From IMG/VR virus record IMGVR_UViG_3300000893_000184, positions 1-20,241 of that record: a DNA stretch of 20,241 nucleotides; one strand, written 5' to 3'. The notes under the pieces were generated by a model. The model was not told the origin of the DNA. It was given only the letters and a program-made list of their open reading frames with translations, and did no database searches. Shown here one piece after another: positions 2,749 through 15,400 of the stretch. The stretch is from a virus. The first letter of the stretch is position 1, and every line of letters starts with the position of its first letter. Both the position numbers and the translations under genes were made by a program.

Positions 2749-2753
2749 GCTGG

Positions 2754-3269
2754 CTAAGTGATCGTAAAGGTTAAAGAACCGCTTGATTGCCCGTCAGGAT
2801 TAGTCACCACAGCACTCTTGGAACCCGCTGCAGCCAGATCGGCGGCCAAAATCGTCACCGTTAAACTCGTCGCACTGCCGAATGTCGTTTGATAAAGACT
2901 ACTTCCAAAAAGAAGCGTCGCACCCGAGACAAAACCCGTCCCGGCTATCGTCACACTTGTGTTGCCGGCACCATGCACAGCCGTATTGGGTGTCAACGTG
3001 CTCAAGCTCGGGGCAGGCACATCAACCACCGTGTCGCCGCCGCGCACAATAAGCCGTCCCCCGTTGCACTGAGGCGGTACATTGATAATCCGGCATTTAT
3101 AACTCAAATTCGGCAACTCCTGATACGGAATAACTTCAAGATCGCCAGCAATCATCAATCGCGGCGCCGCACTAACTCCAGCAGTGGAAGCTAAAGCGAT
3201 ATTAATCCAGCCGTACTTGCCGGTATTAAAAGCCGGAGCAAAGGAGCGAATCGTCGTCGCGACAGCCAT
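2754..3269 (-). CDS. Virion-associated protein with C-terminal IPT/TIG-like Ig domain, 171 aa
   Basis: The N-terminal half (MAVATTIRSFAPAFNTGKYG...) includes LEVIPYQELPNLSYKCRIINVPP and is of unknown type. From about residue 85 the text PSLSTLTPNTAVHGAGNTSV, then IAGTGFVSGATLLFGSS and VTNPDGQSSGSLTFTI, matches the IPT/TIG immunoglobulin-like fold: P-x-[IL]-x-x-[IL]-x-P start, 'GTGF...A...G' core and 'V.NPDG.S' end. Such domains decorate phage capsids and tails and may bind surface carbohydrates. A GTG start 30 bases further upstream would overlap the previous gene; the ATG at 3269, seven bases after that gene's stop, is preferred. No strong ribosome-binding site is seen. Confidence 0.8.
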   Translation of the reverse strand: MAVATTIRSFAPAFNTGKYGWINIALASTAGVSAAPRLMIAGDLEVIPYQELPNLSYKCRIINVPPQCNGGRLIVRGGDTVVDVPAPSLSTLTPNTAVHGAGNTSVTIAGTGFVSGATLLFGSSLYQTTFGSATSLTVTILAADLAAAGSKSAVVTNPDGQSSGSLTFTIT

Positions 3270-3274
3270 AAACT

Positions 3275-3511
3275 CTATTGTTGCAAGATCTGAGGCCACA
3301 CTTCCCGCGGCTGAAATACGATGTAAATCATCGCCGGACTATTGGCATTCGCCGTGGAAGGAACCGATGCCACGATCGAATTAGTTCCGTTGACACCCCA
3401 CACGTAACTCGCCGAACCCAGATCGCCGCTCCGGGTCGCAAACAATGTCGTGCAGAGTGCGTCAATCGTTGTACTGGCTGCGATCACTGTTCCTTGTGCT
3501 GGTTGTGCCAT
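3275..3511 (-). CDS. Small virion-block protein, paralogue 3 of a tandem trio, 78 aa
   Basis: The protein MAQPAQGTVIAASTTIDALC continues TTLFATRSGDLGSASYVWGV and ends near PREVWPQILQQ. It aligns end to end with the products at 3519-3788 and 3896-4210, sharing STTIDAL, LFATRSGDLG, a Y-x-W dipeptide, NSIV and an aromatic C-terminal xVxP. A good Shine-Dalgarno (AAAGGA) lies three bases before the ATG. Function is not recognised. Small size, beta-prone Thr/Ser-rich sequence and the virion block suggest a minor structural or decoration protein. It is closer to the 3519 paralogue than to the 3896 one. Confidence 0.8.
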   Translation of the reverse strand: MAQPAQGTVIAASTTIDALCTTLFATRSGDLGSASYVWGVNGTNSIVASVPSTANANSPAMIYIVFQPREVWPQILQQ

Positions 3512-3518
3512 AAATCCT

Positions 3519-3788
3519 TTATTGTTTTATGCTCGAGGGATAAACCGGACGCGCCTCAAACCGGCAGATTAACGCACTGCCAAGCTGGGCGCTCGGCGTA
3601 GTGCCGCTTGGAAACGTGCCGACAATCGAATTAGGCGTCGCCCAAACGTAGCTTGGCGTACCCAGATCGCCTGAGCGGGTCGCGAAAAGCGAAGTGAAAA
3701 GCGCATCAATAGTTGTGCTGCCCGGGACCGCAGTGCCGGGCGTGATGGCTTGTGGTTCAGGTGCTGCGGGTTGATCAGTTCCGTTCAT
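3519..3788 (-). CDS. Small virion-block protein, paralogue 2 of a tandem trio, 89 aa
   Basis: An N-terminal Pro-rich leader (MNGTDQPAAPEPQAITPGTA) is followed by the shared core GSTTIDALFTSLFATRSGDL, GTPSYVWATPNSIV and the tail EARPVYPSSIKQ. It is homologous to both neighbours (3275-3511 and 3896-4210), so the trio arose by tandem duplication. Seven bases separate its stop from... the next ATG at 3511. No clear Shine-Dalgarno precedes its ATG, but a GC-rich hairpin at 3803-3828 lies just upstream. Function unknown; a virion role is inferred from the neighbourhood. Confidence 0.8.
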   Translation of the reverse strand: MNGTDQPAAPEPQAITPGTAVPGSTTIDALFTSLFATRSGDLGTPSYVWATPNSIVGTFPSGTTPSAQLGSALICRFEARPVYPSSIKQ

Positions 3789-3802
3789 AACATTGGCGTC
3801 AG

Positions 3803-3828
3803 GGGGCCGGTTACCCGACCCGGAGCCC
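3803..3828 (-). other. GC-rich hairpin between two tandem paralogues
   Basis: In the 107-base spacer 3789-3895 the minus strand reads GGGC, then TCCGG, a short loop, and CCGG plus CCC, which can fold into a GC-rich stem with a small bulge. No T-run follows, so it is not a standard terminator. It may be a partial attenuator or mRNA-stabilising stem. The rest of the spacer holds only a 16-codon reading frame and nothing else I can name. Confidence 0.3.
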
Positions 3829-3895
3829 GTTCACGCTAACCAAGAGGTAAATCCGGGAAGCAGATACGCTCTCTTGCTCCTGACATAAATTGTTT

Positions 3896-4210
3896 TTAAG
3901 AAATGGTTGCCGGGTAAAATGCCCGTGATTCAAAATTGATGTACATCGCGCTGCTTGATGCGTTCTGGGTCGTCGCCGCGGTGAAATTGGCGATGATCTG
4001 GTTCGGGCCGCTCCACTGAAACGTCGGCGTCCCGTGCTGCGCGCTCTGGTTGGCAAAGCAGGTGTTGAACAGCGTGGCTAACGTGGTATTGCCCGGAATG
4101 CTGGTGCCGCTGGAGGGTTTAACCAAAGGAACCGGTTCAAGATTCTCTTGGGTTTCCGGATATCCGAAAGGCGGAATCCCTGAATCGCTGGGGGAAAGTT
4201 CCTCGCTCAT
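3896..4210 (-). CDS. Small virion-block protein, paralogue 1 of a tandem trio, 104 aa
   Basis: The protein has an acidic/Pro-rich N-terminus of about 35 residues (MSEELSPSDSGIPPFGYPET...). The shared core follows: GNTTLATLFNTCFANQSAQH, GTPTFQWSGPNQIIANF and the tail SRAFYPATIS. It is the most divergent of the three paralogues and has the longest leader. It is first in the leftward unit; a perfect TTGACA lies about 36 bases upstream of its ATG on the minus strand, with a weak -10 close to the start, so transcription may begin within a few bases of the ATG. Function unknown. Confidence 0.8.
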   Translation of the reverse strand: MSEELSPSDSGIPPFGYPETQENLEPVPLVKPSSGTSIPGNTTLATLFNTCFANQSAQHGTPTFQWSGPNQIIANFTAATTQNASSSAMYINFESRAFYPATIS

Positions 4211-4218
4211 AGAAGTGC

Positions 4219-4246
4219 TTGTTATTCCCTGCTTGTCCGTAATAAT
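4219..4246 (+). promoter_or_regulatory. Candidate rightward sigma70-like promoter
   Basis: TTGTTA (4219-4224, four of six) is followed by a 16-base spacer and AATAAT (4241-4246, five of six). It would drive the plus-strand pair at 4270 and 4695. It physically overlaps the leftward candidate, so the two directions may compete for polymerase. Confidence 0.4.
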
Positions 4247-4251
4247 GTCAA
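4221..4251 (-). promoter_or_regulatory. Candidate leftward sigma70-like promoter
   Basis: On the minus strand a perfect TTGACA (4251-4246) is followed, 19 bases later, by AATAAC (4226-4221, four of six to TATAAT). The spacing is long. The predicted start would lie only a few bases before the ATG at 4210, so the mRNA would be nearly leaderless. It overlaps a candidate promoter facing the other way. Confidence 0.35.
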
Positions 4252-4269
4252 GTTAAATCCCCTTTTGCA

Positions 4270-4698
4270 ATGCAAAATCCGCCTCTTGTCTCAGCTTTAG
4301 GCATTGCGTATGCCTATTTCCCCATTCAAGTCCAACCCGGTGACGGAGCAATCCACCAGTTGCTGCTGACTGAGGTCGAAAGTTTGGGTAACGATTCGCT
4401 CTTTAGCGACGCCGAACGCGGCATCGGCCTAGCGCATCGAGCCATGGTGAGTGTCGACGTCCACGCCAAGTGCGAGCACCAGGTCGCCATCGAACGCCAC
4501 CTCTCTGTGCAGCTGGATAAAGGGGCTAGCGGCGGTCTCATGGAACGCGGCACGAGCACCTTTATCGCCGGCCTCGGTAACGCCAATTATCAGGGAATCC
4601 TCGAAACCGGCCATGTCGTGCGCGCCAGCGTGCAAGCTCCCGGTGACCAGATCTCAATCCAAGGCGGCTACATCTCAGTCGTCGCGACTCCGGTATGA
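4270..4698 (+). CDS. Possible jelly-roll (C1q/TNF-like) virion or receptor-binding protein, 142 aa
   Basis: The protein (MQNPPLVSALGIAYAYFPIQ...) lacks a signal peptide and membrane segments. Its C-terminal half has alternating beta-strand text: MVSVDVHAKCEHQVAIERHL, VQLDKGASGG, GTSTFIAGLGNANY, LETGHVVRASVQAP and the ending IQGGYISVVA. An ending of the type 'G-D-V-V-x-x-x-V...GYISVV' recalls C1q/TNF-like trimeric heads of phage fibres and decoration proteins. That is fold-style inference only. It lies on the plus strand, opposite to the flanking virion and packaging genes. No Shine-Dalgarno precedes the ATG. Its stop overlaps the next gene's ATG (ATGA), so the pair is translationally coupled. 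Confidence 0.7.
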   Translation: MQNPPLVSALGIAYAYFPIQVQPGDGAIHQLLLTEVESLGNDSLFSDAERGIGLAHRAMVSVDVHAKCEHQVAIERHLSVQLDKGASGGLMERGTSTFIAGLGNANYQGILETGHVVRASVQAPGDQISIQGGYISVVATPV

Positions 4699-5036
4699 AA
4701 ACTTTGCTCCTAGTGTTCCTATCCCTGGCCAATTGCGCATTCGCCGCGCCCTTCCTGGTCTGCGACGCGGTGCCGGCCCAGGCCCAGCAAAACCTGAACG
4801 TCGTCAGTTACGTGATCACAGGACTTGCCCAGACACCGATCACTACCCAGGCCATGATCAACGCAGACGGATCGCAGCAACTCCACTATGATCTCTCCGC
4901 CGTGGCCAACGGCAGCTACACCGTAACCGCAGCGGCGGTCAACGGTCTGGGATTGGAGGGACCGTTCAGCGACCCTTTCATCTTCACGGTCGGATTGCCG
5001 ATCAAACCAACGGGCTTGCGAATCAGTCCAACCTAG
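4695..5036 (+). CDS. Secreted protein with fibronectin III/Ig-like fold, 113 aa
   Basis: A classic Sec signal peptide opens the protein: MKTLLLVFLSLANCAFA, with probable cleavage before APF at about residue 18. The remainder (about 95 residues) looks like one beta-sandwich: VVSYVITGLAQTP, a middle DGSQQLHYDLSAVANGSYTV, then TAAAVNGLGLEGPFSDPFIF and the tail KPTGLRISP. The 'L..V.NGSYTVTA.AVN..G.EGPFS.PF.F' pattern is typical of fibronectin type III or related modules. A signal peptide on a phage gene inside the virion region suggests an exported product acting on the host envelope (for example exclusion or surface modification) rather than a capsid part. Function is not established. Start overlaps the upstream stop. 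Confidence 0.75.
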   Translation: MKTLLLVFLSLANCAFAAPFLVCDAVPAQAQQNLNVVSYVITGLAQTPITTQAMINADGSQQLHYDLSAVANGSYTVTAAAVNGLGLEGPFSDPFIFTVGLPIKPTGLRISPT

Positions 5037-5143
5037 TCCAACTGGGCGCGTTCGTGTTTACGCCGAGCGCCAAAGTGCCGGTCACAAGAATCGGCGCCTT
5101 CAGCTTTATGGCGACTCCGACTCCGACGCCAAAGAAATAAACG

Positions 5144-6589
5144 CTACCCCGTCCAACTCCCGAGATTTTCCAATTCTTCCCGGCTAACTCGACCCTCACC
5201 ATACCGGGATTGCTCGCGGTCAAAGCCCTCATAAACCTCATCTAACTTTTCCCACGGATCTTTGAGCCGCTGCGCATACGTCGCGAAGTTTTGCACCCCG
5301 TGCGCAAACGCGCCACAGACCGCATCGGCTCTATCAGGCGATTTAACGCCGCGCGCCGCCATGTCGTCCTTCTTCTCTATCCCCAGTCGGCCGCGCGCGT
5401 CGTAGGTGGTTTTACGGCTCGTTAACTGGCTCACCAGCGTCGGGTCGTTGATTAAACAGAGCTCCCCTTTCTGGATTCGCTGCGCGAACGTGTGCCAGAT
5501 CTCCGCGCCTCTGGAGATAAAATGATCTTCGTTGCTCGGCTTAGCGCCGAAATTAAATCGATTTATCGCCCAACCGGCATCTCTAAGCATGTCACACAGC
5601 GGAAGCCCCAACCCACCGGCATCGCCCCAGATTTGCTCAGCACGAAGACCATGTTTACGGAATTCCAAGATAAAACGACCCACAACGGAAATCGCGTTTG
5701 TATCGTGCCAGGCAGCGAGTTGTAAAAGCTTATTTCCGCTTCGGATAGCGAGCACGTTTTCGTCGCGTCCCAAAGCGAAATCGCAGAAACCAGCGTATTC
5801 ATGTCTTGAGATTTTGGCATGGGGTGGATTGGATAAGGTTGCCATCAGACTCTGGAAGGGCACAATGAAACTTTCTCCCTCGGCCAGATCCATGAACTCG
5901 CCGTAAATCGAAGAGCGTACCAAGGGATGTCCCTCGCCGTAGGTGGCGATCATGTCCTCGAGTTTGGCTTTCGGTATGTGAGGACATTGCTCCAATGAAA
6001 TTTCGAAAACGATATGCTGGGCGCGGTTACTGGCAAAACAGTCGTAAAAGGTGCCGCTTCGTAGTCCGGGCGAGGAAATCACGAGCAGCACGGCGTAGCC
6101 GCAACGGTCGACCGCCTCGAAAATGGCGTTCGGAACCGATTTGGCTTCGTCGATTATTAGTAACAACGGAGCGCCTTTGGCTCCATGGTGACCTTCCATA
6201 CGACTGGGCTCATCTGTGGTAAAGCTAATCAATGTGCCGCCCTGCGGCGTCCGGATCTCCCGGGAAAGAAATTCCCAGTGGATCAGGTGCGGGTGGCGAT
6301 AGGAGGTCAAAGCCCGCATCAGCTGGCTATCGAGCTGGCGCGCATCGGCACTGGTTAAGACAACCTTGCTTTTGGGATAACGATCCAGCCAGCGCAGAAT
6401 GACGGTCGGAATGACAATCGAACTTTTGCCGCTGCCGTTGGGCGTGCGCACCGCAATCCGGACCCGCTCCAGACTCGAACCGAAATCAACCGCCTCGGCG
6501 ACTTCGGCCTGCCAGGGATAAAGCTCCTGGGATAGCACTTTTTTGGCAAACAGGTGCGGCGAATCAACGAGGCCTTTGGCCAGTTTCAT
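5144..6589 (-). CDS. Terminase large subunit (ATPase-nuclease DNA packaging motor)
   Basis: The 481-residue protein has the two-domain layout of TerL. ATPase domain: an adenine-binding Q (WQ at 26-27), Walker A RTPNGSGKSS (48-57), Walker B LLLIIDEAK (142-150, D147/E148) and a coupling motif SSPG (172-175). Nuclease domain: first Asp in GFCDFALGRDE (D270), second in WGDAGG (D323) and third in SPDRADAV (D419/D422), forming an RNase H-like metal site. The enzyme pumps DNA into the prohead through the portal and cuts the concatemer. Length is normal for the family. The ATG overlaps the methyltransferase stop (ATGA). It runs convergent with the plus-strand pair, about 107 bases apart. Confidence 0.93.
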   Translation of the reverse strand: MKLAKGLVDSPHLFAKKVLSQELYPWQAEVAEAVDFGSSLERVRIAVRTPNGSGKSSIVIPTVILRWLDRYPKSKVVLTSADARQLDSQLMRALTSYRHPHLIHWEFLSREIRTPQGGTLISFTTDEPSRMEGHHGAKGAPLLLIIDEAKSVPNAIFEAVDRCGYAVLLVISSPGLRSGTFYDCFASNRAQHIVFEISLEQCPHIPKAKLEDMIATYGEGHPLVRSSIYGEFMDLAEGESFIVPFQSLMATLSNPPHAKISRHEYAGFCDFALGRDENVLAIRSGNKLLQLAAWHDTNAISVVGRFILEFRKHGLRAEQIWGDAGGLGLPLCDMLRDAGWAINRFNFGAKPSNEDHFISRGAEIWHTFAQRIQKGELCLINDPTLVSQLTSRKTTYDARGRLGIEKKDDMAARGVKSPDRADAVCGAFAHGVQNFATYAQRLKDPWEKLDEVYEGFDREQSRYGEGRVSREELENLGSWTG

Positions 6590-7479
6590 CTTTGGAGTTC
6601 GACTTGATGGATTGCTTGGAAAAAGGGAAACGCTTGTTGCGGAACAACCGCGTTGCCGAGCGCTTTAAGGCGGTGTGATCGATGGGGAATCCCATCAACT
6701 CTTCGACAAAGCGGGGGTTGAGTGAGCCCGAACCGGTAAGGCCCGCTGCTTCGGATAGTGGGCGGGAGTTCTCCTTGGCAGCGTGGGAAGTGCTCTTCCA
6801 GTCCCGCTCGATGGGGGTCGGCCAGAGTTTCGGAGTGAGCACTTGATCGCTCAGTTGCATCGCATGGCCGTTGGCTAGTCTCTGCTCTGCGTTCTGGCCT
6901 CCCCCCGTCACAATCGAGCTGTTCGGCGTGCGCCAGAGCTTCTTCACTTCGTATTGCAGATCCCCATGTCCCTCCCCTTGGCTGTCGTAACCCTCCTTGC
7001 GTGGAGTGGGCAACAATGAAGATTCGATACCGCAGATGCTTGGCTCCAACTGCGTTAGCTGGAACGCTGAAAGCGCGAAGCGTGTATCCAAGCGATTCCA
7101 GACGTAGGAGCACTCCATCGAACTCGCCCAGTGTGAGGATGCCAGGAGGATTTTCGAAAATGCACCAAGTTGGCTGGACTGTTCCAACCACATCGAGCAC
7201 TGCCGACCAGAGCCAACGGTCATCACTCGCGCCTCGGCGCTTCCCGGCAAGACTCGCCGGCTGGCACGGGACGCCGGCGGACAGGACAGTGACACGGTTT
7301 CGAAGCCCGCTAAAATCGGCTCGTCGCAAGTCTCCATAGTTGGGTATCTCCGGCCATTTCTCTTCCAGTAACGCGCAGCAATATCGATCTATCTCGCTGA
7401 AACCCAGAGTCTCAAATCCCGCCCATTCCGCCGCCAAGTGAAAGCCGCCGATGCCACTGCACAGATCCAAGTGCGTCAC
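6586..7479 (-). CDS. DNA (cytosine-5-)methyltransferase, phage-encoded
   Basis: This 297-residue enzyme would transfer a methyl group from S-adenosylmethionine to C5 of cytosine. Motif I is DLCSGIGGFHLAAEWAGF (5-22), motif II has SEID (28-31) and motif IV is PCQPAS with catalytic Cys72. RRGASDDRWLW (81-91) is the loop region after the catalytic site. Motif VI is ENPPG (109-113; most relatives have ENV, so a Pro follows the Glu-Asn), motif VIII is LRYRIFIVA (149-157) and motif X is ALGNAVVPQQA near the C-terminus. The target-recognition region lies between about residues 160 and 260, so specificity cannot be read. It starts with GTG, overlapping the upstream stop as GTGA, and its stop overlaps the TerL ATG. 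No restriction enzyme is beside it, so it is an orphan, probably anti-restriction or packaging-related. Confidence 0.92.
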   Translation of the reverse strand: MTHLDLCSGIGGFHLAAEWAGFETLGFSEIDRYCCALLEEKWPEIPNYGDLRRADFSGLRNRVTVLSAGVPCQPASLAGKRRGASDDRWLWSAVLDVVGTVQPTWCIFENPPGILTLGEFDGVLLRLESLGYTLRAFSVPANAVGAKHLRYRIFIVAHSTQGGLRQPRGGTWGSAIRSEEALAHAEQLDCDGGRPERRAETSQRPCDATERSSAHSETLADPHRAGLEEHFPRCQGELPPTIRSSGPYRFGLTQPPLCRRVDGIPHRSHRLKALGNAVVPQQAFPFFQAIHQVELQR

Positions 7480-7787
7480 TTGACTCTCCAGATTCGCAAC
7501 AACGCCCGGCCGCGCATCGGGATTTTCTCCCCGTCAGTCATCCGGGTTCGAACTTTGATCCCGGTCATTGCAGCCAACCAATGAATGTAACCGTGGTGCC
7601 CGTTGAAAACGACCGATTGACCAACCTGCATTCGGCAAAAAGCTTTGCGCAGCCAACGGTAAGGTGGCGCCGCAGTGCCCGGGATCGGCACATCGGATTC
7701 CAGGATTAGTTCATGATTGTCTTCGGGCTCAGCCGACGCGCGCATCGAACGGCGTAAAGCGAGTTTTCTGGCCAGGGCGCTTTTCAC
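7476..7787 (-). CDS. Short conserved-type phage protein, 103 aa
   Basis: The C-terminal 70 residues carry DVPIPG, then YRWLRKAFCRMQVGQSVVF, then VRTRMTDGEK and a final LRIWRVK. The order 'P-I-P ... [MK]-x-V-G-x-S-x-x-F ... R-[IV]-W-R' resembles a short protein family found in many phages (the DUF7303-like group), whose role is not known. The start is GTG at 7787 with a GTGA overlap on the probable TerS stop; its own stop overlaps the methyltransferase GTG. Lying inside the packaging block, it is probably co-translated with TerS and the methyltransferase. Confidence 0.7.
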   Translation of the reverse strand: MKSALARKLALRRSMRASAEPEDNHELILESDVPIPGTAAPPYRWLRKAFCRMQVGQSVVFNGHHGYIHWLAAMTGIKVRTRMTDGEKIPMRGRALLRIWRVK

Positions 7788-8245
7788 TCCGGCGCTCCAT
7801 TCCCGTTGCCGAGTTGGGCTGGTTTATAGTTGGCGAACATTTTCTTGACCGACTCGCGCACCGGCGCGGCTTCTTTTTCAATCTCCTTCATTTCGGCGCG
7901 AGTGATGTGAATGGAGAGATTATTCTGGGTAAAACTGTTGTGCTGAAAAGTGAGCTGGACCTCGGGTTTAGCGAACTGAGTTGGGTAACGGCGCTCGAGC
8001 ATCCAGCAGACGCCGGCCGGCAAATATTGACCTTCCCAGAGCTGGCGGCGGTAAGGTTCTTCGAGTTCGAGCGCAGCTTTTTTGATATTAGGAAATAACT
8101 TGCCGCAACGCGCCTGCTGAATGGTGCGATAACTGGTTCCGACCATGACGCCGATTTGCTCATCGGTATAAGCAAGCCAGATGAGTTCAGCGACGCGCTT
8201 CTGTTTGGCTGGGGTTAAGAGCGGAGGGCGACCGGTGCGCGGCAT
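7784..8245 (-). CDS. Probable terminase small subunit / HTH DNA-binding protein, 153 aa
   Basis: The N-terminus (MPRTGRPPLLTPAKQKRVAE) leads into a helix-turn-helix (LAYTDEQIGVMVGTSYRTIQ, about residues 24-43). The centre holds CWMLERRYPTQFAKPEVQL, a W/M-LERR-[YH]-P-x-x-[FW] pattern common in small terminases. The C-terminus is a charged helix suited to oligomerisation. TerS proteins bind the packaging site and load TerL; the gene sits two small genes upstream of TerL on the same strand, as usual for the pair apart from the inserted methyltransferase. A simple transcription regulator remains possible. Confidence 0.7.
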   Translation of the reverse strand: MPRTGRPPLLTPAKQKRVAELIWLAYTDEQIGVMVGTSYRTIQQARCGKLFPNIKKAALELEEPYRRQLWEGQYLPAGVCWMLERRYPTQFAKPEVQLTFQHNSFTQNNLSIHITRAEMKEIEKEAAPVRESVKKMFANYKPAQLGNGNGAPE

Positions 8246-8475
8246 AAGACTAAAATATCGAATGGATTACGATCAGGGAAGAACTCAACGGAAGAAGCTC
8301 GGCGAATAAATCCGTCAGCGATGAGGAGAGAAATGACTTGGATTTTTTGTTCCGGATCTAACGGATAAAGGTCGCCTGAAAAATACCAATGCTCTGAAGT
8401 GAAAGGTTTGCCCTTATGCTCAAGCTGATAAGCGAGATCGGCAAGGAGTTCGGATTTGAACTGTTTAGAGGTCAT
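8215..8475 (-). CDS. Hypothetical protein, 86 aa
   Basis: From the ATG at 8475 the product begins MTSKQFKSELLADLAYQLEH and contains SEHWYFSGDLYPLDPEQKIQ and FFPDRNPFDILVLCR. It may be a small winged-helix-like protein (helix-helix-strand pattern with LLIADGFIRR), but I do not recognise it. A longer version from a TTG at 8571 would be translated through the GTCGAC repeat cluster and is unlikely. Its 3' end overlaps the start of the next gene by 31 bases. No Shine-Dalgarno is visible. Confidence 0.5.
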   Translation of the reverse strand: MTSKQFKSELLADLAYQLEHKGKPFTSEHWYFSGDLYPLDPEQKIQVISLLIADGFIRRASSVEFFPDRNPFDILVLCRAPVALRS

Positions 8476-8519
8476 AAGCGCGTCGACAATTCTGTCGACA
8501 TGTCGTCGAAAAATGATAA

Positions 8520-8633
8520 GGGGACCAGCCGACAAAACCGAAGTTCTTTGACTGAGTATTGTTGTCGACAAACGTATTTGTATACGCGAAGCGTATAAAT
8601 ACGTGTCGACGACAGTTTTGTCGGTAGGTCCCC
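8520..8633. repeat. Interrupted inverted repeat with 19-bp arms in the origin-like region
   Basis: The left arm 8520-8538 (GGGGACCAGCCGACAAAAC) and right arm 8615-8633 (GTTTTGTCGGTAGGTCCCC) are reverse complements at 17 of 19 positions. Between them lie a second, nested hairpin and two of the GTCGAC copies. Outer arm ends are GC-rich (GGGGACC/GGTCCCC). The element is too long and loop-rich for a terminator and has no T-run; a protein-bound cruciform at an origin or recombination site is more likely. Confidence 0.6.
8561..8613. repeat. Nested hairpin ACGTATTT..GAA..AAATACGT flanked by GTCGAC
   Basis: ACGTATTTGTATACGC (8572-8587), a GAA loop and GCGTATAAATACGT (8591-8604) pair over 14 bp with one 2-base bulge. 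The palindrome continues outward through a GTCGAC on each side (8564 and 8605), so the symmetry covers about 53 bp. The AT-rich stem lies inside the larger inverted repeat and could mark a strand-opening site. Confidence 0.6.
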
Positions 8634-8648
8634 GTGTTGTCGACAGGT

Positions 8649-9731
8649 TCAGGCTGTCGACGCATTTGTCGACGCCGTCGACGGATTGCGATATTTTGCG
8701 ACATAAGAGGCGGTGAGGAAATATCTGGCTTCATGGTCTGTAGCGAGATATCCAAGGTTTTTGGCAGATTTAATTCTGCGGTCCATGGTGCGCTCTGTAA
8801 TTTCGAAAGGCCTGGTTCTGGCGAAAAGATCTCCGTAAGAAATATATTCTTCGGAGCCGATAAGGCTGCATAGATCATCGACGGAAAGTTTAAGTTTTGT
8901 TGCCGACTTAAAGCTCTTGAGATTATCGGGATCTTTGTCGGCTTCGACATGGAAACGAGGATGACGAAACTGAACTGCGAAAGGTTCAACACCGTGACAG
9001 GAGCGTGTATTAGCGGTGACGTTGTAGCATTTTTCATCCTGCATTTCTCTGAAGGTGAGGCAGGTATCCGGAGCGCGGCCCCAAACGCCAGTACCGCTGA
9101 AAGCTTCAATAGCGCGTTTATCGCTTTGGTTGCCTTTGGAGAAATGATGAAGTAATCCGACACCGCAATTGAGCCGGGAAGCGAGCTCCGCGGCGCGGTT
9201 CATGAGCTCGACTACGATGCCGGTGTCACTTTCACTCATGCGCGCGCCTCCTAAGATGCGATAGATGGGATCGATTGAGATGGCACGATAACGGTTGGGA
9301 TCAAGATAATCGGCAAGTCGGCTTAAATCGTTGAGGCTGAAATTAATGCCGCGCAGCGAAATGACCTCGATATTTTCCAGGGTTCCATCGCCATAGGAAG
9401 CAGCAATCTCTTCGAAACGTTTTCGGATATCGGATTTAAACAATTCACAATCGATATGAAGCACTTTACCGAAACCGGTTCCGGTCCAGACAAGCCAGTC
9501 GAAGGCGCTTGCGACACAATACATCAGATCCATCAATCCCCAGCTTTTCCAGCTTTTGGAATGGCCTCCGATGAGCAGCACTTCCTGACGGCGCCAGAGG
9601 CGCTCGAGAATAACTTCGCTGCCTTCCTTAGGGAGTTCCGAGATTTTTTGCGGTTGGAGCCAGGCGGGTTTTTCGCCATTGGTTTCGACCTTTCTGTAAT
9701 GCTGACTGAAAGGGTCAAAAGCTTCTGGCAT
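8649..9731 (-). CDS. RepA-like replicative ATPase (AAA_25/RecA-fold hexameric helicase type)
   Basis: This 360-residue protein has a Walker A of the RepA type, GGHSKSWKS (55-63, K62), then HIDCE (92-96), Walker B ISIDP (151-155), a sensor HH (195-196) followed by FSKGNQSDK, and FSGTGVWGRAPD (211-222). This order matches the RSF1010 RepA/AAA_25 group, DNA-dependent ATPases and 5'-3' helicases that act at origins. The C-terminal ~90 residues look like a winged-helix module (YISYGDLFARTRPFEITERT, then MDRRIKSAKNLGYL). The final residues STASTNASTA are encoded by the GTCGAC repeats. The ATG at 9731 has an AAGGA nine bases upstream. No primase domain is seen, so priming would come from elsewhere. 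Confidence 0.85.
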   Translation of the reverse strand: MPEAFDPFSQHYRKVETNGEKPAWLQPQKISELPKEGSEVILERLWRRQEVLLIGGHSKSWKSWGLMDLMYCVASAFDWLVWTGTGFGKVLHIDCELFKSDIRKRFEEIAASYGDGTLENIEVISLRGINFSLNDLSRLADYLDPNRYRAISIDPIYRILGGARMSESDTGIVVELMNRAAELASRLNCGVGLLHHFSKGNQSDKRAIEAFSGTGVWGRAPDTCLTFREMQDEKCYNVTANTRSCHGVEPFAVQFRHPRFHVEADKDPDNLKSFKSATKLKLSVDDLCSLIGSEEYISYGDLFARTRPFEITERTMDRRIKSAKNLGYLATDHEARYFLTASYVAKYRNPSTASTNASTA

Positions 9732-9758
9732 TGATGTGCGTCCTTACTCTAAGACTCT

Positions 9759-10154
9759 TCACATAGGATACAGCGTGATTTTGATTATCTCGTTGCCGTG
9801 CGGATCTTTAGCCTGGTTCGCGCGGACTTTGTATTTTTTGGCGCCGATGTTCCCCTGGCCGGAATAAGTGCCGCGTTTCTCAGAATTAAGGACGAAATAG
9901 CCGCGTCCGGTTTCGGGCGGCATTTTGAGACGTTCGGAGTCGATGAGTTCGCGCAAAAGGATTTCCATTTTCTGCGCCTCATGTCGGATATCGGGAACCT
10001 GTTCGATCATGCGCCGGCGCAGATCGTCTTCGGCAATCTGCTGCACGCGTTCCAAACGTTTCTGGTGCGCCCAGGCTTCTTCCCGCGCCTGGAAGGCCGG
10101 ATCGATCTGGGATTCTGTTTCCCAAGTGTATTCGTCGTTCTGTTCCGGGGGCAT
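9759..10154 (-). CDS. Hypothetical charged protein upstream of RepA, 131 aa
   Basis: From the ATG at 10154 the protein begins MPPEQNDEYTWETESQIDPA. It has a long charged, probably coiled-coil middle (REEAWAHQKRLERVQQIAED...) and a C-terminal beta-type part (GRGYFVLNSEKRGTYSGQGN, then KYKVRANQAK and IIKITLYP). I recognise no family. The start is fixed by an AGGAG five to six bases before it; an in-frame TTG at 10169 lies upstream of that site and is rejected. It lies 27 bases upstream of the RepA-like gene, so a replication accessory role is plausible. Its leader contains the 18-bp hairpin 10167-10257. Confidence 0.75.
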   Translation of the reverse strand: MPPEQNDEYTWETESQIDPAFQAREEAWAHQKRLERVQQIAEDDLRRRMIEQVPDIRHEAQKMEILLRELIDSERLKMPPETGRGYFVLNSEKRGTYSGQGNIGAKKYKVRANQAKDPHGNEIIKITLYPM

Positions 10155-10166
10155 AAAGTCTCCTCT

Positions 10167-10257
10167 CAAACCCCACTACTGAAAAGTCCGTGGAAAACCC
10201 AACTTTGCCTCAGGGCAGCGAGGCATGGGACGAGCATGCTTTCAGTAATGGGGTTTG
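10167..10257 (-). promoter_or_regulatory. Structured 5' leader: 18-bp stem with inner hairpin, adjoining the ribosome-binding site
   Basis: On the minus strand CAAACCCCATTACTGAAA (10257-10240) pairs with TTTCAGTAGTGGGGTTTG (10184-10167) over all 18 positions, one being U-G. In a plus-strand RNA the same position would be an A-C mismatch, so the fold favours the minus transcript. Inside, TGCCTC and GAGGCA form a perfect 6-bp stem (10207-10226), extended by a TGGG/CCCA pairing with a bulge. The 3' arm ends four bases before the AGGAG of the 131-aa gene. This could be a translational operator or a structured origin-linked RNA; I recognise no known riboswitch class. Confidence 0.55.
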
Positions 10258-10294
10258 AAGGGAGAGCGAACCTTTTCCGGGTTCATGAGCTCAG

Positions 10295-10323
10295 AGTCTG
10301 GCTTACGAATCCGTAACAGTCAA
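10295..10323 (-). promoter_or_regulatory. Weak candidate promoter for the 131-aa/RepA unit
   Basis: Minus-strand TTGACT (10323-10318, five of six to TTGACA) is followed by a 17-base spacer and CAGACT (10300-10295, only three of six to TATAAT). It lies between the terminator of the upstream operon and the leader hairpin, where a promoter is expected, but the -10 is poor. A 5-bp hairpin TTACG/CGTAA (10303-10316) falls within the spacer. Confidence 0.25.
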
Positions 10324-10331
10324 TGCGATTG

Positions 10332-10376
10332 AAAAAAGCGGGCCCGAACCCTTGGCGTTCTGATTCGGGACCCGCT
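10332..10376 (-). terminator. Rho-independent terminator of the leftward recombination operon
   Basis: Read leftward, the stem AGCGGGTCCCGAA (10376-10364) pairs with TTCGGGCCCGCT (10348-10337) with one bulged base and a 15-base loop. Six T residues (10337-10332) follow at once. This is a standard intrinsic terminator placed about 55 bases after the stop of the 78-aa gene. It closes the operon that starts near 15359 and separates it from the RepA unit. Confidence 0.85.
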
Positions 10377-10430
10377 GACATTGTGCCCCACAGCATTAGT
10401 GTCTCTAGAGCGAATCTATCGCATAAACCC

Positions 10431-10667
10431 CTAGTCTGTTCCAATCTCTTTCGCGTTGACCTTGGTTAGATCCAGAACCAGTTGGCAGTAGGCGGCTAAA
10501 AGCCTGGCGCGTATATCTGCGGTTTGTTCACGGTCACCAGGGACGAAGTGACCGGCTAGCCAAAGGGAGGTCAATTCGGCCAGTACAGCGCTTTGCAGAG
10601 CAGGCTCTCTGCCGGCCAGGATGGGTTTAATACGCTCAGCCAATTCCACGATCTCTTTGGCATTCAT
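10431..10667 (-). CDS. Hypothetical small helical protein, 78 aa
   Basis: The product (MNAKEIVELAERIKPILAGR...) is almost wholly helical, with LQSAVLAELTSLWLAGHF and ADIRARLLAAYCQLVLDL. I do not recognise a family. The ATG overlaps the stop of the previous gene as ATGA. It is the last gene before the intrinsic terminator. It lacks the ELRKAA ending of its three upstream neighbours, so it is not clearly part of that paralogue set. Confidence 0.7.
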   Translation of the reverse strand: MNAKEIVELAERIKPILAGREPALQSAVLAELTSLWLAGHFVPGDREQTADIRARLLAAYCQLVLDLTKVNAKEIGTD

Positions 10668-10855
10668 TCTGCCGCCTTTCGCAGTTCTGCGATCAGGTCA
10701 AACCAATCTCTGATCTCTATTTGACTATTCCTGCCAAGTGTTTCGTAGGCCAGCGCAGCGGCCGCACGGCCGCATAGTTCTTTTGTGCGCGCTAACTCAA
10801 CCTGGAGAATGAGTATCACAGCTTGCGAACCTATAACCTCATCCGCCTCGCTCAC
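10664..10855 (-). CDS. Small coiled-coil-type protein, ELRKAA-family paralogue C, 63 aa
   Basis: The start is a GTG at 10855 (VSEADEVIGSQAVILILQVE), which overlaps the previous stop as GTGA; a longer in-frame start at 10960 would overlap most of the neighbour and is rejected. The C-terminal half contains KELCGRAAAAL and ends DLIAELRKAAE. It shares [KL]xLCxRAAxAL plus IAELRKAA with the two upstream genes, so the three arose by tandem duplication. Function unknown; the short Leu-rich helix suggests oligomerisation. Confidence 0.7.
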   Translation of the reverse strand: MSEADEVIGSQAVILILQVELARTKELCGRAAAALAYETLGRNSQIEIRDWFDLIAELRKAAE

Positions 10856-11057
10856 TGTGCCGCCTTTCGCAGTTCGGCGATTATAGATGCATCCAAACCC
10901 AGTTCCTCGATGGGCCACTCCTTGTGAATTTTCTCCAACGCATCCGCCGCACGGAGGCACAACGTTTTTAAACCGGCGATCTGAGTCCCGCTTTCCTCTA
11001 GAGCCTCCAGTAATATTAGGTTCTCGCTCACTCGGCCGCCTTTCGTAGTTCTCGGAT
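10670..11057. repeat. Three 24-nt direct repeats marking duplicated 3' gene ends
   Basis: Plus-strand copies at 10670-10693 and 10858-10881 are identical at 23 of 24 positions; a third, more diverged copy is at 11034-11057. Each encodes the last residues (xELRKAA) of one of the three small paralogues on the minus strand. Spacing is 188 and 176 bases. The high nucleotide identity of the first two against diverged coding upstream suggests recent duplication or gene conversion of the ends. Confidence 0.7.
10852..11031 (-). CDS. Small coiled-coil-type protein, ELRKAA-family paralogue B, 59 aa
   Basis: GTG start at 11031 with a GTGA overlap on the previous stop. The protein VSENLILLEALEESGTQIAG continues LKTLCLRAADALEKIHKEW and ends ASIIAELRKAAQ. 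The Leu/Ala heptad-like pattern fits a short coiled coil. LCLRAADAL is identical in the upstream paralogue A. A start at 11079 is possible but would extend 48 bases into that gene. Function unknown. Confidence 0.7.
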   Translation of the reverse strand: MSENLILLEALEESGTQIAGLKTLCLRAADALEKIHKEWPIEELGLDASIIAELRKAAQ

Positions 11058-11342
11058 TAAATCGTCGCGTTCTTGCCAAGTACAGCCAGCCAGCGCATCA
11101 GCCGCGCGGAGACAAAGCCCTGACAATTCTTCAATCGTTTTGCGTTCTTCGGCGTTGAGAAATTTCAAACGTTCGATCTCAGCCAAAAGCGCGGCTTTTT
11201 CCATAACCAACAAACTTGATCCAGTTGGCTGCAATGCTTGAGGCAAAGGCATCGAGACCAAACCGCTGACCGGTTGGCCGCTTCCTACCGGGCAACCTGG
11301 CTCGTGGCCTGGGACAGGGTGCAGACAGATTTGGCAATGCAT
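11028..11342 (-). CDS. Zn-knuckle plus ELRKAA-family protein, paralogue A, 104 aa
   Basis: The chosen ATG at 11342 (MHCQICLHPVPGHEPGCPVG) lies eight bases after the stop of the 56-aa gene; an ATG at 11426 would overlap that gene by about 75 bases. The N-terminus has CQIC...H..GC, a likely small zinc-binding knuckle. A Gly/Pro-rich linker follows, then a coiled coil (MEKAALLAEIERLKFLNAEE) and the shared end LSGLCLRAADALAGC...LIRELRKAAE. It is the longest paralogue and probably the parent copy from which B and C derive as C-terminal fragments. Role unknown. Confidence 0.7.
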   Translation of the reverse strand: MHCQICLHPVPGHEPGCPVGSGQPVSGLVSMPLPQALQPTGSSLLVMEKAALLAEIERLKFLNAEERKTIEELSGLCLRAADALAGCTWQERDDLIRELRKAAE

Positions 11343-11350
11343 GACTGGCG

Positions 11351-11521
11351 CTAGAGTAAACGTTCCATCAGCTTGGCGGCCAGTGTTTCCAGAAACCGGT
11401 GATGATCTTTGTGTTTCTGGGTGCATTTGCCGTTGCCGGCCAAGAGCCGGTAATATTCCAGGTGATCTTTGACCAATCCCTGCAGGTATCCAATCTCTTC
11501 GGGCTCAAAGTGAATCGTCAT
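11351..11521 (-). CDS. Hypothetical protein, 56 aa
   Basis: The ATG at 11521 overlaps the stop of the HTH gene as ATGA, and the frame runs to TAG at 11351. The product is MTIHFEPEEIGYLQGLVKDH, then LEYYRLLAGNGKCTQKHKDH and HRFLETLAAKLMERLL. Two amphipathic helices are separated by a Cys/His-rich turn. I recognise no family. The stop-start overlap on one side and an eight-base gap to the next gene on the other argue that this short frame is a real gene. Confidence 0.7.
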   Translation of the reverse strand: MTIHFEPEEIGYLQGLVKDHLEYYRLLAGNGKCTQKHKDHHRFLETLAAKLMERLL

Positions 11522-11676
11522 TTGATATTTTTATAGGTCGAGTGCGCCAGTAACTGATGAAGAGTGTTTTTGGAAATGCCAAAGAGTCTGCCGATGAACG
11601 TGCGCCGGAACCCTTCTCGGCGCATCTGGCGGATCAGGATGACCTGGTAAGGTAAAAGCTTGCGCGACGTTTTCAT
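11518..11676 (-). CDS. Small helix-turn-helix protein, 52 aa
   Basis: From the ATG at 11676: MKTSRKLLPYQVILIRQMRR, EGFRRTFIGRLFGISKNTLH and QLLAHSTYKNIK. The segment IRQMRREGFRRTFIGRLFGI plus SKNTLHQLL is a clear helix-turn-helix of the resolvase/sigma-region-4 style, so it probably binds DNA. The start at 11730 used by a longer frame overlaps the nuclease gene; the chosen ATG overlaps the nuclease stop as ATGA. It could be an autoregulator or a nuclease partner. Confidence 0.75.
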   Translation of the reverse strand: MKTSRKLLPYQVILIRQMRREGFRRTFIGRLFGISKNTLHQLLAHSTYKNIK

Positions 11677-12059
11677 CCCCAGCTTTTGATGATCTCGATC
11701 GCTTCGGCGGCACTGGTGACCACATGCCATTTAATCCCTTCGCCCTGAAGCTGGAGCCTAAAATGCGCCTGCTCCTCGCTAAGGTGTCCAGCAGCCGATT
11801 TAAACTCGATCCAGGCGCTAGCGCCATCTTTACCCACCCAGAAATCAAAAACACCTGTAGTGGCCGTAGAACGCTTGTGCGTGGCATGCCAGCAGTAGGG
11901 CAGAGCGTTAAGAAGGAGCCAATTGGCAAAAATGCGTTGCTCCTCGCGTTCCAGGCGCGGTCGGCGCAGAATTTTAGGCTGCACTTGGACGGGTTCCACC
12001 GGCATACCTTCAATCATGCTTTTCTGATGCAGGGAAAGCTCGTTCCACTTAATGCCCAT
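11673..12059 (-). CDS. VRR-NUC domain nuclease, 128 aa
   Basis: The protein carries the virus-type replication-repair nuclease pattern: E-x-x-E/Q helix (LEREEQRIFANWLLLN, 36-51), HATHKRSTATTGVFDFWVG with D72, then WIEFKSAAG (E85, K87) and EEQAHFRLQLQ with Q97. Together these form the PD-(D/E)XK metal site. VRR-NUC proteins in phages cut branched or flapped DNA, including Holliday junctions, during replication and packaging. The length suits a stand-alone VRR-NUC. Its first 11 bases overlap the end of the Zn-ribbon gene. The placement with an annealing protein, SSB and another PD-(D/E)XK nuclease supports a recombination role. Confidence 0.85.
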   Translation of the reverse strand: MGIKWNELSLHQKSMIEGMPVEPVQVQPKILRRPRLEREEQRIFANWLLLNALPYCWHATHKRSTATTGVFDFWVGKDGASAWIEFKSAAGHLSEEQAHFRLQLQGEGIKWHVVTSAAEAIEIIKSWG

Positions 12060-12309
12060 GATGTTTTTTCGCTCTGGCCAGAGTGTGCTGGATCAAACGA
12101 ATCTCGGCGAGCTCATCAAATCCTAGAGCGCTCAAGTCCGCCTTTACTAGGAGTAATCCCGGGCCGAAAGAGAGCGCTGCACCACACGCCAGACAAACGG
12201 TTAGATCCCCGGCTTCGGGACGTTGCTCCTCGCCGCCGGCCCGAGACAAAGGGTGGCCGCATGCCGGACAGTTCTGGTGTGGAGTCAGGTGTTCGTAATC
12301 GAATTTCAT
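12049..12309 (-). CDS. Zinc-ribbon protein, 86 aa
   Basis: From the ATG at 12309: MKFDYEHLTPHQNCPACGHP, then a linker and VCLACGAALSFG. The two CxxC pairs (CPAC and CLAC), about 27 residues apart, form a zinc ribbon. The C-terminus is a helix (ELAEIRLIQHTLARAKKHHG). Such proteins are common small phage gene products with unknown roles in transcription or nucleic-acid binding. A longer frame from 12441 would overlap the whole membrane-protein gene. The chosen ATG overlaps that gene's stop (ATGA). Confidence 0.75.
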   Translation of the reverse strand: MKFDYEHLTPHQNCPACGHPLSRAGGEEQRPEAGDLTVCLACGAALSFGPGLLLVKADLSALGFDELAEIRLIQHTLARAKKHHGH

Positions 12310-12497
12310 TGCCACTTTGCGCGTTGCGAATCGTAAATGCCCTGCAAGCGTTTCCAGCGGCGCAACTCTCTGCGTTCCTGGGCCAGGATGTGCAGCATGC
12401 AGCGGATCTGCCAACTGGCCCAGAGCAGGACGCCGGACCAAATGAAAAGGATCACGGCAAGCGTGCCGCAGGCGTGGTCAAAGATCGAGTCGGTCAT
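12306..12497 (-). CDS. Single-pass membrane protein with basic cytoplasmic helix, 63 aa
   Basis: The protein MTDSIFDHACGTLAVILFIW continues SGVLLWASWQIRCMLHILAQ and ERRELRRWKRLQGIYDSQRA. One membrane segment spans about residues 9-30, followed by a positively charged amphipathic helix, so the C-terminus is predicted inside the cell. Function unknown; it is too short for a typical spanin and lacks a holin layout. Both ends are ATGA overlaps. Confidence 0.7.
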   Translation of the reverse strand: MTDSIFDHACGTLAVILFIWSGVLLWASWQIRCMLHILAQERRELRRWKRLQGIYDSQRAKWQ

Positions 12498-12871
12498 AGC
12501 TTCTTCAAAGTCTTCGCGTGCATTGCTTCCCAGTCTTCTGGACTAACTGGTGGATTGTCCAACGCTCTGCTGTAAAGCGTCATCATCCCTTTATGCTGCT
12601 GCAGGATCAGCGACCAATAATGGCCGCATTCCCCTCGAAAATCGATACGCACCGCACTGCGCCGTTCGCTACTATGCCGATCAAAAATCAGATTCGTGCC
12701 TTCATATAAACTTATTTCGTCTTCATCAGGATCAAGCTCAGTGCCGACACGTAGCACATGATGGTAAACGCCTTCACAAAACGGACATTCCAAGCTTTCC
12801 TGTTCATCAGAACCGACAGGTTTCATGCGGTAAACTTCTGCGCCGATCATAAAGATTGATCCTGGGTTCAT
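12494..12871 (-). CDS. Hypothetical Cys-containing phage protein, 125 aa
   Basis: The product holds LECPFCEGVYHHVLRVG (CxxC near residue 29), then a middle IDFRGECGHYWSLILQQHKG (residues ~77-96) and a C-terminal DNPPVSPEDWEAMHAKTLKK. The CPFC pair with the later ECGH could jointly bind zinc. I have the impression of a recurrent phage family with 'CPFC...EC.H.W.L...QHKG', but cannot name it. The start overlaps the stop of the PD-(D/E)XK nuclease gene (ATGA). Confidence 0.75.
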   Translation of the reverse strand: MNPGSIFMIGAEVYRMKPVGSDEQESLECPFCEGVYHHVLRVGTELDPDEDEISLYEGTNLIFDRHSSERRSAVRIDFRGECGHYWSLILQQHKGMMTLYSRALDNPPVSPEDWEAMHAKTLKKL

Positions 12872-14013
12872 TCTGAGACAACTTGCGCATTTGACTGACG
12901 AGGATCGGTTTGACTGAGTACCCCTTTAATTCTCTTTAAAGAAGGTGAATTTGGCCTTTCGATAATTAACCCATGTAAAATTTCATTCATCCGTTGTTTG
13001 GCATCCTTTCCTTTTAATTTCAACACTTTCGCCAAAGCTTTTTCCAACTCACCAAGTCGATAATTAGCAGCACCCTTTATCTGATCAGTATCCAAATACT
13101 CTCCCAATCTTCCACGCGCAGCATCCCAATCCGTCACTTCCCGCCTCACAGCTCCCGGCACCATTGCGTAATTCGGAATTGAAAAGGATGGATCGGTTAA
13201 AAGTTTTTCAGAATAGAACTCTTCCACTTGGTCGCATAATCGCCGCAGCATTTCGACTTCATCTAAAAGCTTACTAGCACGATTCGGTTCCACTGGTAGC
13301 TGAGTTATTTGAAGCTTGCTTATTGGCGCAACAGTTGCGTCACGAAAGGGTTGACAGATTAACTGAGCCGGACAAAAACGACATTGTTCCGGGCCTGGGC
13401 TGAAAGTTGCATGCGGATCGTTGATCGCGCGCAAAGTAGCTCTAATATCGCCATAAGCCGCTTCCAACTCTCTATAATCATACCGGGCCTCAGTGACTCC
13501 ATACGGACCGCTGACGATCTGGGCAATCACGTGATGCACCTGGGGATAGGCAAGCGCCAGGACCACGGACAGGAATTTCAGTTGGGCGTTAATTTGCGCG
13601 GGATCCGGTTCCCTGAACCCGAATTTGTAGTCCTGAATCAGCGCGACCTTTCCTCCAATGATAAATCGGTCAACGCGCCCGCTGGCGACTGGCTTGCCGC
13701 CTACATATAACCAAAGCCGGCGTTCTTTAAATTCCTGCACCGGACTATCGCCAAAGATCCGTGTCACTTGATCATCAGCGCGTTCGCGCATGAAAGCCAC
13801 TGACGTCTTTTCAGTCTCATCAAGCTCGACTGCTTCACCCGCCATGCTCGCATGACCGCGTTTTCCACTCCTGGCATCAGGACTGTCCTTGTACGCTTCC
13901 TGCCCTAATCGCTTAGCTTCCTGCGAAAGCTGGTGAGAAGCGCTGCAAAGCTCGTTCCGTCGCCACGCTGAGGCGCTCGGAAGCCCACGTCTCTCGTCTA
14001 AATCGGTGTCCAT
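12868..14013 (-). CDS. PD-(D/E)XK exonuclease, DUF2800/Cas4-like, 381 aa
   Basis: The N-terminus has LPSASAWRRNELCSASHQLS (a conserved 'S.S....C..S' start with Cys23) and GKRGHASM. The catalytic core is GRVDRF (D115) and IQDYKFG (D128, K130), followed by a helix with AQLKF (Q144). A Cys cluster CRFCPAQLIC (C211, C214, C220) together with Cys23 would bind an Fe-S or zinc centre, as in Cas4/AddB-type nucleases and phage DUF2800 proteins. It probably resects dsDNA for the neighbouring annealing protein. The last ~150 residues are helical and unassigned. Start and upstream stop share one base (TGATG). Confidence 0.85.
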   Translation of the reverse strand: MDTDLDERRGLPSASAWRRNELCSASHQLSQEAKRLGQEAYKDSPDARSGKRGHASMAGEAVELDETEKTSVAFMRERADDQVTRIFGDSPVQEFKERRLWLYVGGKPVASGRVDRFIIGGKVALIQDYKFGFREPDPAQINAQLKFLSVVLALAYPQVHHVIAQIVSGPYGVTEARYDYRELEAAYGDIRATLRAINDPHATFSPGPEQCRFCPAQLICQPFRDATVAPISKLQITQLPVEPNRASKLLDEVEMLRRLCDQVEEFYSEKLLTDPSFSIPNYAMVPGAVRREVTDWDAARGRLGEYLDTDQIKGAANYRLGELEKALAKVLKLKGKDAKQRMNEILHGLIIERPNSPSLKRIKGVLSQTDPRQSNAQVVSE

Positions 14014-14531
14014 CAGAATGGTAAATCGTCAGGTTCAGTGTCGCTCGGGGCGCCCGCGGCCTGCTTGCTCCGCCGTTGCGCCTCAGCCCATTGGGCGTCA
14101 CTGGCCCCTTGTTTGGGTGCCGCGGTCGGCCCGACTTCTTTCGGACGGTAATAGTACGCCACCCGGTTAACTTCTTTGCCGGCCATTGATCCCATCTGCG
14201 CTACTTCAACTTTCAGCCGACATTTGCCATGAGCTCCTGACACTGCACGCCAGTTCGGTCCATCACCTCGCTCTTTTGGCGCACGATTGATGGCCAAGAG
14301 GAATTCGCCAATCCCGTCCCGCGGTTCGCCCTGGCTCGTTTCTCCGCTCCAAGGTTGATCGAAAACCGTTTGGCCTTGAATGGTTAGCCTGACTTTCAAG
14401 ACCCAGTTGCCGTTGGCTTTCTGGTAAGGCTCAGTATAATCTGCGACCTCAAAAGCGTAATCGCCTTCCGGCAACGGTCCGCTCGGCATCCGACGCTCGT
14501 CACCGCCTTGAAAGGTATAGCCTGTAATCAT
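14013..14531 (-). CDS. SSB-like single-stranded DNA-binding protein (DUF669-type), 172 aa
   Basis: The N-terminal half (GPLPEGDYAFEVADYTEPYQ, then WVLKVRLTIQG, TVFDQPW and GIGEFLLAINRAP) is an OB-fold-like pattern as seen in phage DUF669 proteins. CRLKVEVAQMGSMAGKEVNR resembles the C-terminal strand of those proteins. A Gln/Ala/Pro-rich linker leads to the tail EPDDLPF, which copies the acidic DDxPF tip of bacterial SSB that recruits partner enzymes. The gene lies between the annealing protein and the exonuclease, an established phage recombination order. Start overlaps the annealing gene stop (ATGA). Confidence 0.8.
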   Translation of the reverse strand: MITGYTFQGGDERRMPSGPLPEGDYAFEVADYTEPYQKANGNWVLKVRLTIQGQTVFDQPWSGETSQGEPRDGIGEFLLAINRAPKERGDGPNWRAVSGAHGKCRLKVEVAQMGSMAGKEVNRVAYYYRPKEVGPTAAPKQGASDAQWAEAQRRSKQAAGAPSDTEPDDLPF

Positions 14532-15197: not shown

Positions 15198-15359
15198 TTA
15201 AATTTCTTTTGAGTTTACGTTACCGGATCGCTTCAGATCGGCCAAAATAAGACCCACGATGTAGCTCGAGCGATTACGCCCTTTGGCTTTAGCCTCCCTA
15301 TTTATCTCAGGCAAAAGCTCTTTCGGGATTGTGATCGAAGTGCGCATAACTCTTTTCAT
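15198..15359 (-). CDS. Ribbon-helix-helix regulator (CopG/Arc-type), leftward, 53 aa
   Basis: The product MKRVMRTSITIPKELLPEIN, then REAKAKGRNRSSYIVGLILA has a strand (RTSITIPKE) followed by two helices, the ribbon-helix-helix layout. RHH dimers insert the strand in the major groove. A start four codons later (MRTSITI) is equally plausible. It is first in the leftward operon and divergent from another RHH gene 42 bases away, so it probably regulates its own operon and perhaps its neighbour. The long frame from 15410 would overlap the other regulator and is rejected. Confidence 0.8.
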   Translation of the reverse strand: MKRVMRTSITIPKELLPEINREAKAKGRNRSSYIVGLILADLKRSGNVNSKEI

Positions 15360-15388: not shown

Positions 15389-15400
15389 CTGGGTTCAGAT

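Follow-up and report, generated by a model that had tools for sequence, protein, structure and literature searches.

A palindrome array within a nested hairpin at the 3' end of a phage rep gene: a probable replication origin of variable motif

Do eight GTCGAC palindromes crowded at the end of a RepA-like gene mark the replication origin of a phage, and is the palindrome itself the conserved part? The question is raised by a virus record from IMG/VR, 20,241 bases long (the window, i.e. the whole stretch of DNA that was analysed), in which the original prediction had read the cluster as a possible origin, partition or resolution site.

The array, its hairpin and the adjoining genes

A recount placed the GTCGAC copies at 8482, 8494, 8564, 8605, 8639, 8656, 8668 and 8677, with spacings of 12, 70, 41, 34, 17, 12 and 9, exactly as first described, and the plus strand reads TGTCGAC at six of the eight, in agreement with "mostly TGTCGAC"; the other copies in the contig number three (592, 4453 and 6107) and not two as claimed. 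About 4.4 copies are expected in a 20-kb contig, and the densest 201 bp in 300 Markov-1 simulated contigs contained at most two. Eight copies per 201 bp were reached by no other 6-mer of the window: the next-densest was the overlapping TGTCGA (six), followed by values of four or lower. The resulting density was 29.6 per kb in 270 bp at the array against 0.15 per kb in the remaining contig.

Three of the copies (8656, 8668 and 8677) are located inside rep, where they code for the final residues of the protein, and the remaining five sit in the 173-bp gap between rep and the next gene. A nested inverted repeat, overlooked in the original prediction, extends over the whole array. Folded as single-strand DNA, 8480-8690 had an MFE of -66.5 kcal/mol compared to -33.7 +/- 3.0 for its shuffles (z = -10.9), the lowest energy among the segments scanned along the contig and its strongest predicted hairpin. 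The nested arms are 8480-8500/8655-8675, 8520-8538/8615-8633, 8560-8570/8604-8614 and 8572-8582/8594-8604, with a GCGAAGC tip at 8586-8592; the structure starts in the last codons of rep and occupies the gap up to the next gene. The array region is mildly AT-rich (local G+C of 48% vs 54%) and the hairpin centre is AT-rich, with no long A+T run. The coding-strand RNA of the region also folds strongly (MFE -94.1, z = -8.2), and an Rfam search of 8200-9000 returned zero matches. The features of the locus are as follows:

7784-8245, minus strand: TerS-like gene, weak match to PHROG 4102 (terminase small subunit, 0.0011), with homologues in the relatives L125 and L325
8215-8475, minus strand: next gene, 86 aa, without functional assignment; its ATG closes the intergenic gap
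8480-8690, no strand: candidate origin, eight GTCGAC within one nested inverted repeat (by count and folding)
8482-8499, no strand: GTCGAC copies 1-2 (8482, 8494); arm 8480-8500 pairs with 8655-8675 (21 nt, 86% complementary)
8520-8538, no strand: middle arm GGGGACCAGCCGACAAAAC, pairs with 8615-8633 (19 nt, 89%)
8564-8610, no strand: inner hairpin, GTCGAC copies 3 (8564) and 4 (8605) on either side of ACGTATTTGTATACGC-GAA-GCGTATAAATACGT
8615-8633, no strand: middle arm GTTTTGTCGGTAGGTCCCC, partner of 8520-8538
8639-8682, no strand: GTCGAC copies 5-8 (8639, 8656, 8668, 8677; by count)
8649-9731, minus strand: rep, RepA-like replication helicase of 360 aa with a RecA fold (Pfam AAA_25, 1.2e-17)
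8652-8684, minus strand: 3' end of rep built from the repeat and read as PSTASTNASTA (from the sequence)
8691-8882, minus strand: Rep residues 284-347, predicted winged-helix-like C-terminal domain, proposed reader of the motif

The best PHROG for Rep was 2597 "DNA primase" (8.8e-37) and its fold matched RecA, KaiC, DnaB and RSF1010 RepA (1olo); at the sequence level no relative with a solved structure was found. The last approximately 70 residues were modelled as helix-helix-helix-strand-strand, a block with pLDDT of 65-87 in an overall weak model (mean pLDDT 60.7), and the C-termini of the Rep relatives are also HTH-like. The PSTASTNASTA tail is absent from the 50% identical Rep of L325.

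The other genes of the contig include portal-like, TerL, C5 methyltransferase, PD-(D/E)XK exonuclease, SSB-like and RecT-like genes. Since its TerL is closest to that of Akkermansia phages and the bacterial genomes with a Rep relative are mostly Verrucomicrobiota MAGs, the host probably belongs to the Verrucomicrobiota, judging from these affinities. In broad gene order the Akkermansia phages match the window, but their helicase is of the DnaB type; no comparable hairpin was seen after the DnaB-type helicase gene in phages Chambord and Chantilly, and the Akkermansia phage stretches examined contained zero GTCGAC. Elsewhere in the window, a 1244-aa protein (16414-20148, minus strand) had neither a Pfam nor a PHROG match, and a single-protein scan of viral contigs gave no relative of it. 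Two small, divergent, slightly overlapping RHH-like genes (15198-15410, minus; 15401-15658, plus) matched Pfam weakly, and L325 contained two matches to the former.

Conservation of the layout and turnover of the motif

The same kind of single-protein scan gave no relatives of the window Rep, and these were obtained instead via a TerL alignment and a Rep alignment. A check put forward with the original prediction, that the same repeat should stand beside repA in related phages, turned out negative for GTCGAC itself. In L125, whose TerL is 85% identical to that of the window, a different AAA_25 ATPase occupies the rep position and is followed by 8-10 copies of ATTTCA/TGAAAT, and in L325, which has a similar gene order (identities of 50% for Rep, 55% for the exonuclease and 41% each for SSB and TerS), rep is followed by nine copies of ACCGCC/GGCGGT. 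Comparison of the three arrays therefore revealed three motifs at one position within one broad lineage. No other 200 bp of the contig is as dense in repeats as the stretch behind rep, in the window as well as in L125, the motifs being different.

Ranking within each locus extended this picture. Among viral Rep relatives, 8 of 16 non-redundant loci had the 220 bp that follow the rep stop in their top 5% for motif repetition (p = 3.5e-7), and for motif arrays directly upstream of rep the score was 0 of 16. A second, independent set, drawn from genomes of bacteria and archaea (for the most part Verrucomicrobiota MAGs), had the array after rep at all eight non-redundant loci (seven in the top 2%), with the motifs GGCTCA, GCTGCA, TCATAA, AACTTC, GACAAA, ACACCG, ACCACT and GGACAA. 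The fold anomaly after rep was in the top 5% at 18 of 24 loci with unrelated sequences, and both signals together reached the top 2% at 11 of 24 non-redundant rep ends vs 0 of 240 when the 3' ends of other genes in these loci were ranked (p = 3e-13), these rank tests all being made on loci that are not fully independent and with a scoring scheme written for this analysis. Neither array nor hairpin was present after rep in L346 and L354. Annotated phages agreed: in six whose helicases are homologous (Enterococcus EFC-1, Paenibacillus Diane, Streptococcus Javan273 and Javan377, Faecalibacterium FP_Lugh and Dulem 35) the fold rank was 0.000 in all six and the motif rank 0.000 in five.

Sharing of the motif between pairs of Rep depended on their identity: it was 84-99% above 90% identity, 35% at 80-90% and 0 of 918 pairs, highly redundant ones, at 70-80%. 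Because motifs are shared mainly by nearly identical Reps and never at 70-80% identity, the comparison suggests fast coevolution or swapping of the Rep and motif pair; the motif differs even among phages of similar gene order, and therefore Rep and origin seem to coevolve or swap as a unit. What is conserved is the hairpin together with an array that is placed after rep and oriented both ways, and not GTCGAC itself.

Two further observations concern individual loci. A Prevotella MAG contig (L410/L411, 7002-7200) carries the same rep with an ACACCG/CGGTGT array of 11 copies twice, in the ranges 30634-43608 and 1378-14352. After rep in L164, L342, L397 and L401, the motif copies are accompanied by a common TATATATATA-like tract and a GGACTCCTTA-type hairpin, resembling an unwinding region and a second hairpin.

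GTCGAC arrays were also encountered in unrelated viral contigs. Among the matches listed, 65 of 119 TGTCGAC clusters had all copies in one frame, and such in-frame coding repeats, about half of these clusters, were set aside. Arrays at replication genes were found in L016 after a Prim-Pol/PriCT_2 replicase and in L100 after a DnaG-type primase, both unrelated to the window Rep; GTCGAC is denser than in the window (12 and 11 copies) at L016 4551-4778, L096 444-671 and L100 5595-5820. A cluster in L006 (2781-2820) is located within a Phage_rep_org_N (replisome-organiser) gene, and those in L025 (2323-2348), L091 (7616-7640), L080 (4284-4402) and L089 (10240-10449) are within genes that look like initiators by eye; in this the five resemble origins within initiator genes. 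The arrays with hairpins at L056 5860-6086, L083 9956-10172, L118 474-627 and L042 868-1021 have a common TTTAGAAT(G/C)ATT-like stretch and no recognised replication gene nearby; three of them (L056, L118 and L042) are near TerS-like genes, in L056 together with an SprT-like gene. The control palindrome GACGTC produced similar arrays, also near replication genes, the counts for the two palindromes being not comparable as each was taken among the matches listed. The notion that GTCGAC is special in itself was dropped after this control scan, and since GACGTC arrays occur at replication genes too, GTCGAC is not one spreading element.

Known origins and rival explanations

The annotated origin of Streptococcus phage Sfi21, which served as a positive control in the same test, is a 302-bp non-coding region (34487-34784, the "phage inhibitory sequence") overlapping the end of orf382, and it gave six AGTAAC copies with motif and fold ranks of 0.000 each. 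It has been described as an independent origin activated by infection (PMC6356513). Similarly to the window array, it starts in the last codons of the helicase gene and fills the gap behind, with a short motif in both directions (AGTAAC/GTTACT), a nested hairpin and identical ranks. In contrast to the window, it has a long A+T tract, a motif and sequence unrelated to those of the window, and a helicase of the Pox_D5/DUF5906 type next to a Prim-Pol primase in place of AAA_25; the window Rep had no profile match and no detectable similarity to orf382. Replication of the Sulfolobus plasmid pRN1 requires an intact stem-loop of ~100 nt immediately downstream of the replication gene; the structure of this stem-loop is kept among relatives, its sequence is not, and the authors called it a putative origin, noting a similar stem-loop in Bordetella phage BIP-1 (PMC4234260). 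The likeness lies in a stem-loop right behind a gene whose product is a replication protein with a winged helix at its end, a winged-helix-like one by prediction in the window, while pRN1 differs in the lack of iteron-like repeats and in a protein combining Prim-Pol with an SF3 helicase. With these two, the region 8480-8690 shares its place, overlapping and following the rep 3' end, and a large stem-loop conserved in structure and not in sequence, but not the Prim-Pol primase with SF3/D5 helicase, the window Rep being AAA_25 only. The window array would thus vary a type of origin that is already known: it would work like those of Sfi21 and pRN1 but is not classed as a member, because its Rep is AAA_25 and lacks similarity to orf382.

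Compared to iterons, the array has several short copies adjoining an initiator gene (eight vs three in the rest of the contig), but they are not direct, helically phased repeats: the unit is palindromic, the spacings are irregular and the relatives use both orientations. RSF1010 oriV is similar in having a hexameric RecA-fold helicase (RepA) and iterons with priming hairpin sites (ssiA/ssiB), and different in that a separate RepC binds the iterons, three proteins (RepA/RepB'/RepC) take part and the repeats are of iteron type without a palindromic unit. In lambda, the O protein recognises a cluster of repeats located in or beside its own gene. The same holds for phages TP901-1 and Tuc2009 (PMC8965321). 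In all three the array lies within the gene and the initiators are replisome organisers, not helicases. The alpha protein of satellite phage P4 binds origin repeats via its winged-helix domain, then unwinds and primes (PMC4234260); by this description it resembles what is proposed for the window, a replication protein whose winged helix reads origin repeats, and differs as a Toprim primase fused to a helicase.

The origin assignment is well supported, though by evidence other than the tests initially proposed. Conservation of GTCGAC does not support it, nor does GC skew, which showed a local positive stretch at 7.5-9.5 kb and no global minimum or clear reversal in the contig, a 20-kb fragment, so that other sites may exist; the layout conserved without its sequence, the lineage-specific motif array, the nested hairpin and the position at the rep 3' end argue well for it. 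From these sequence features 8480-8690 is most likely the replication origin of the phage and the cognate target of the adjacent helicase. The alternative offered with the original prediction, a partition or resolution site, gained no support: a Pfam scan of 20 window proteins revealed no partition protein (ParA/ParB-type) or resolvase, and the RHH-like genes, with their weak matches, are 6.7 kb away.

Packaging sites often adjoin terS, and a TerS-like gene is close downstream not only in the window but also in L125 and L325, so that a pac/cos site had to be weighed, at which the small terminase, encoded 240 bp away, would bind to start packaging. It is unlikely, as the array follows rep and does not track terS: it stays directly after rep in L164, L328, L342, L397 and L401, where TerL is 3-5 kb downstream, and in EFC-1, Javan273 and FP_Lugh, where the annotated terS is 1.4-2.5 kb downstream, and in Sfi21 the annotated cos lies elsewhere, the corresponding place being occupied by the annotated origin. 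Quite improbable, too, is a transcription terminator or structured 3'-UTR of rep mimicking an origin. The strong coding-strand RNA hairpin followed by a weak T-rich stretch, and the co-direction of all neighbouring genes, would suit it, but termination needs no array of a single motif, the other gene 3' ends in the loci compared lacked the combined signal, and in pRN1 the terminator hairpin adjoining the origin stem-loop is dispensable (PMC4234260). The array hairpin may additionally terminate transcription.

Palindromic repeats are typical of operators, and the weakly matched RHH-like genes (15198-15658) could encode a regulator; an operator or copy-control site that takes no part in initiation, and through which transcription would be controlled by Rep or by some other regulator of the phage, is nevertheless very improbable, given that the array stands after rep and not before it, that none of the 16 viral loci had a top-5% array directly upstream of rep, and that the motif varies with the adjoining rep and not with a distant regulator. 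The possibility that a mobile palindromic element (MITE-like, or the end of a transposon) had inserted behind rep by chance was raised by the similar ~220-bp arrays with nested hairpins in unrelated viral contigs, of which L056, L118, L042 and L083 are not beside a recognised replication gene. It was rejected and deserves hardly any credence: the contig has a single copy, a target-site duplication was not seen by eye, GACGTC behaves alike at replication genes, and homologous positions in relatives carry other motifs, i.e. the position is kept and the sequence is not.

Proposed initiation and the rep-origin cassette

If the region is the origin, initiation might proceed as follows. The winged-helix-like C-terminus of Rep, a low-confidence model, would bind the TGTCGAC copies, the palindromic unit, identical on both strands, permitting binding in either direction. 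Rep rings would then assemble at the array, the nested inverted repeat, AT-rich at its centre, would be opened or extruded, and the helicase would be loaded, with priming and fork assembly to come next. Rep and array would travel as one cassette, the motif changing as Rep diverges.

On a broader proposition we are evenly divided: that AAA_25-helicase phages of Verrucomicrobiota, Bacteroidota and Firmicutes share one self-contained cassette of rep and origin. In it, a giant hairpin directly after rep would contain a motif that is private and changes fast. The C-terminal winged helix of Rep would read this motif, which is kept above 90% Rep identity and replaced at 70-80%, and which would act as an "origin password" that decides on incompatibility between replicons and, when phages coinfect, on PER-like immunity by origin decoys. 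This broader picture, in which the cassette is fixed and each lineage has its own motif, has the greater interest. Cultured phages with the same layout, such as EFC-1 and the Paenibacillus phage Diane, make the reading testable, and the Rep/array pairs represent matched natural sets for learning how a winged helix reads its origin. From this pairing it can also be predicted which phages a cloned origin would block, or which would compete for it.
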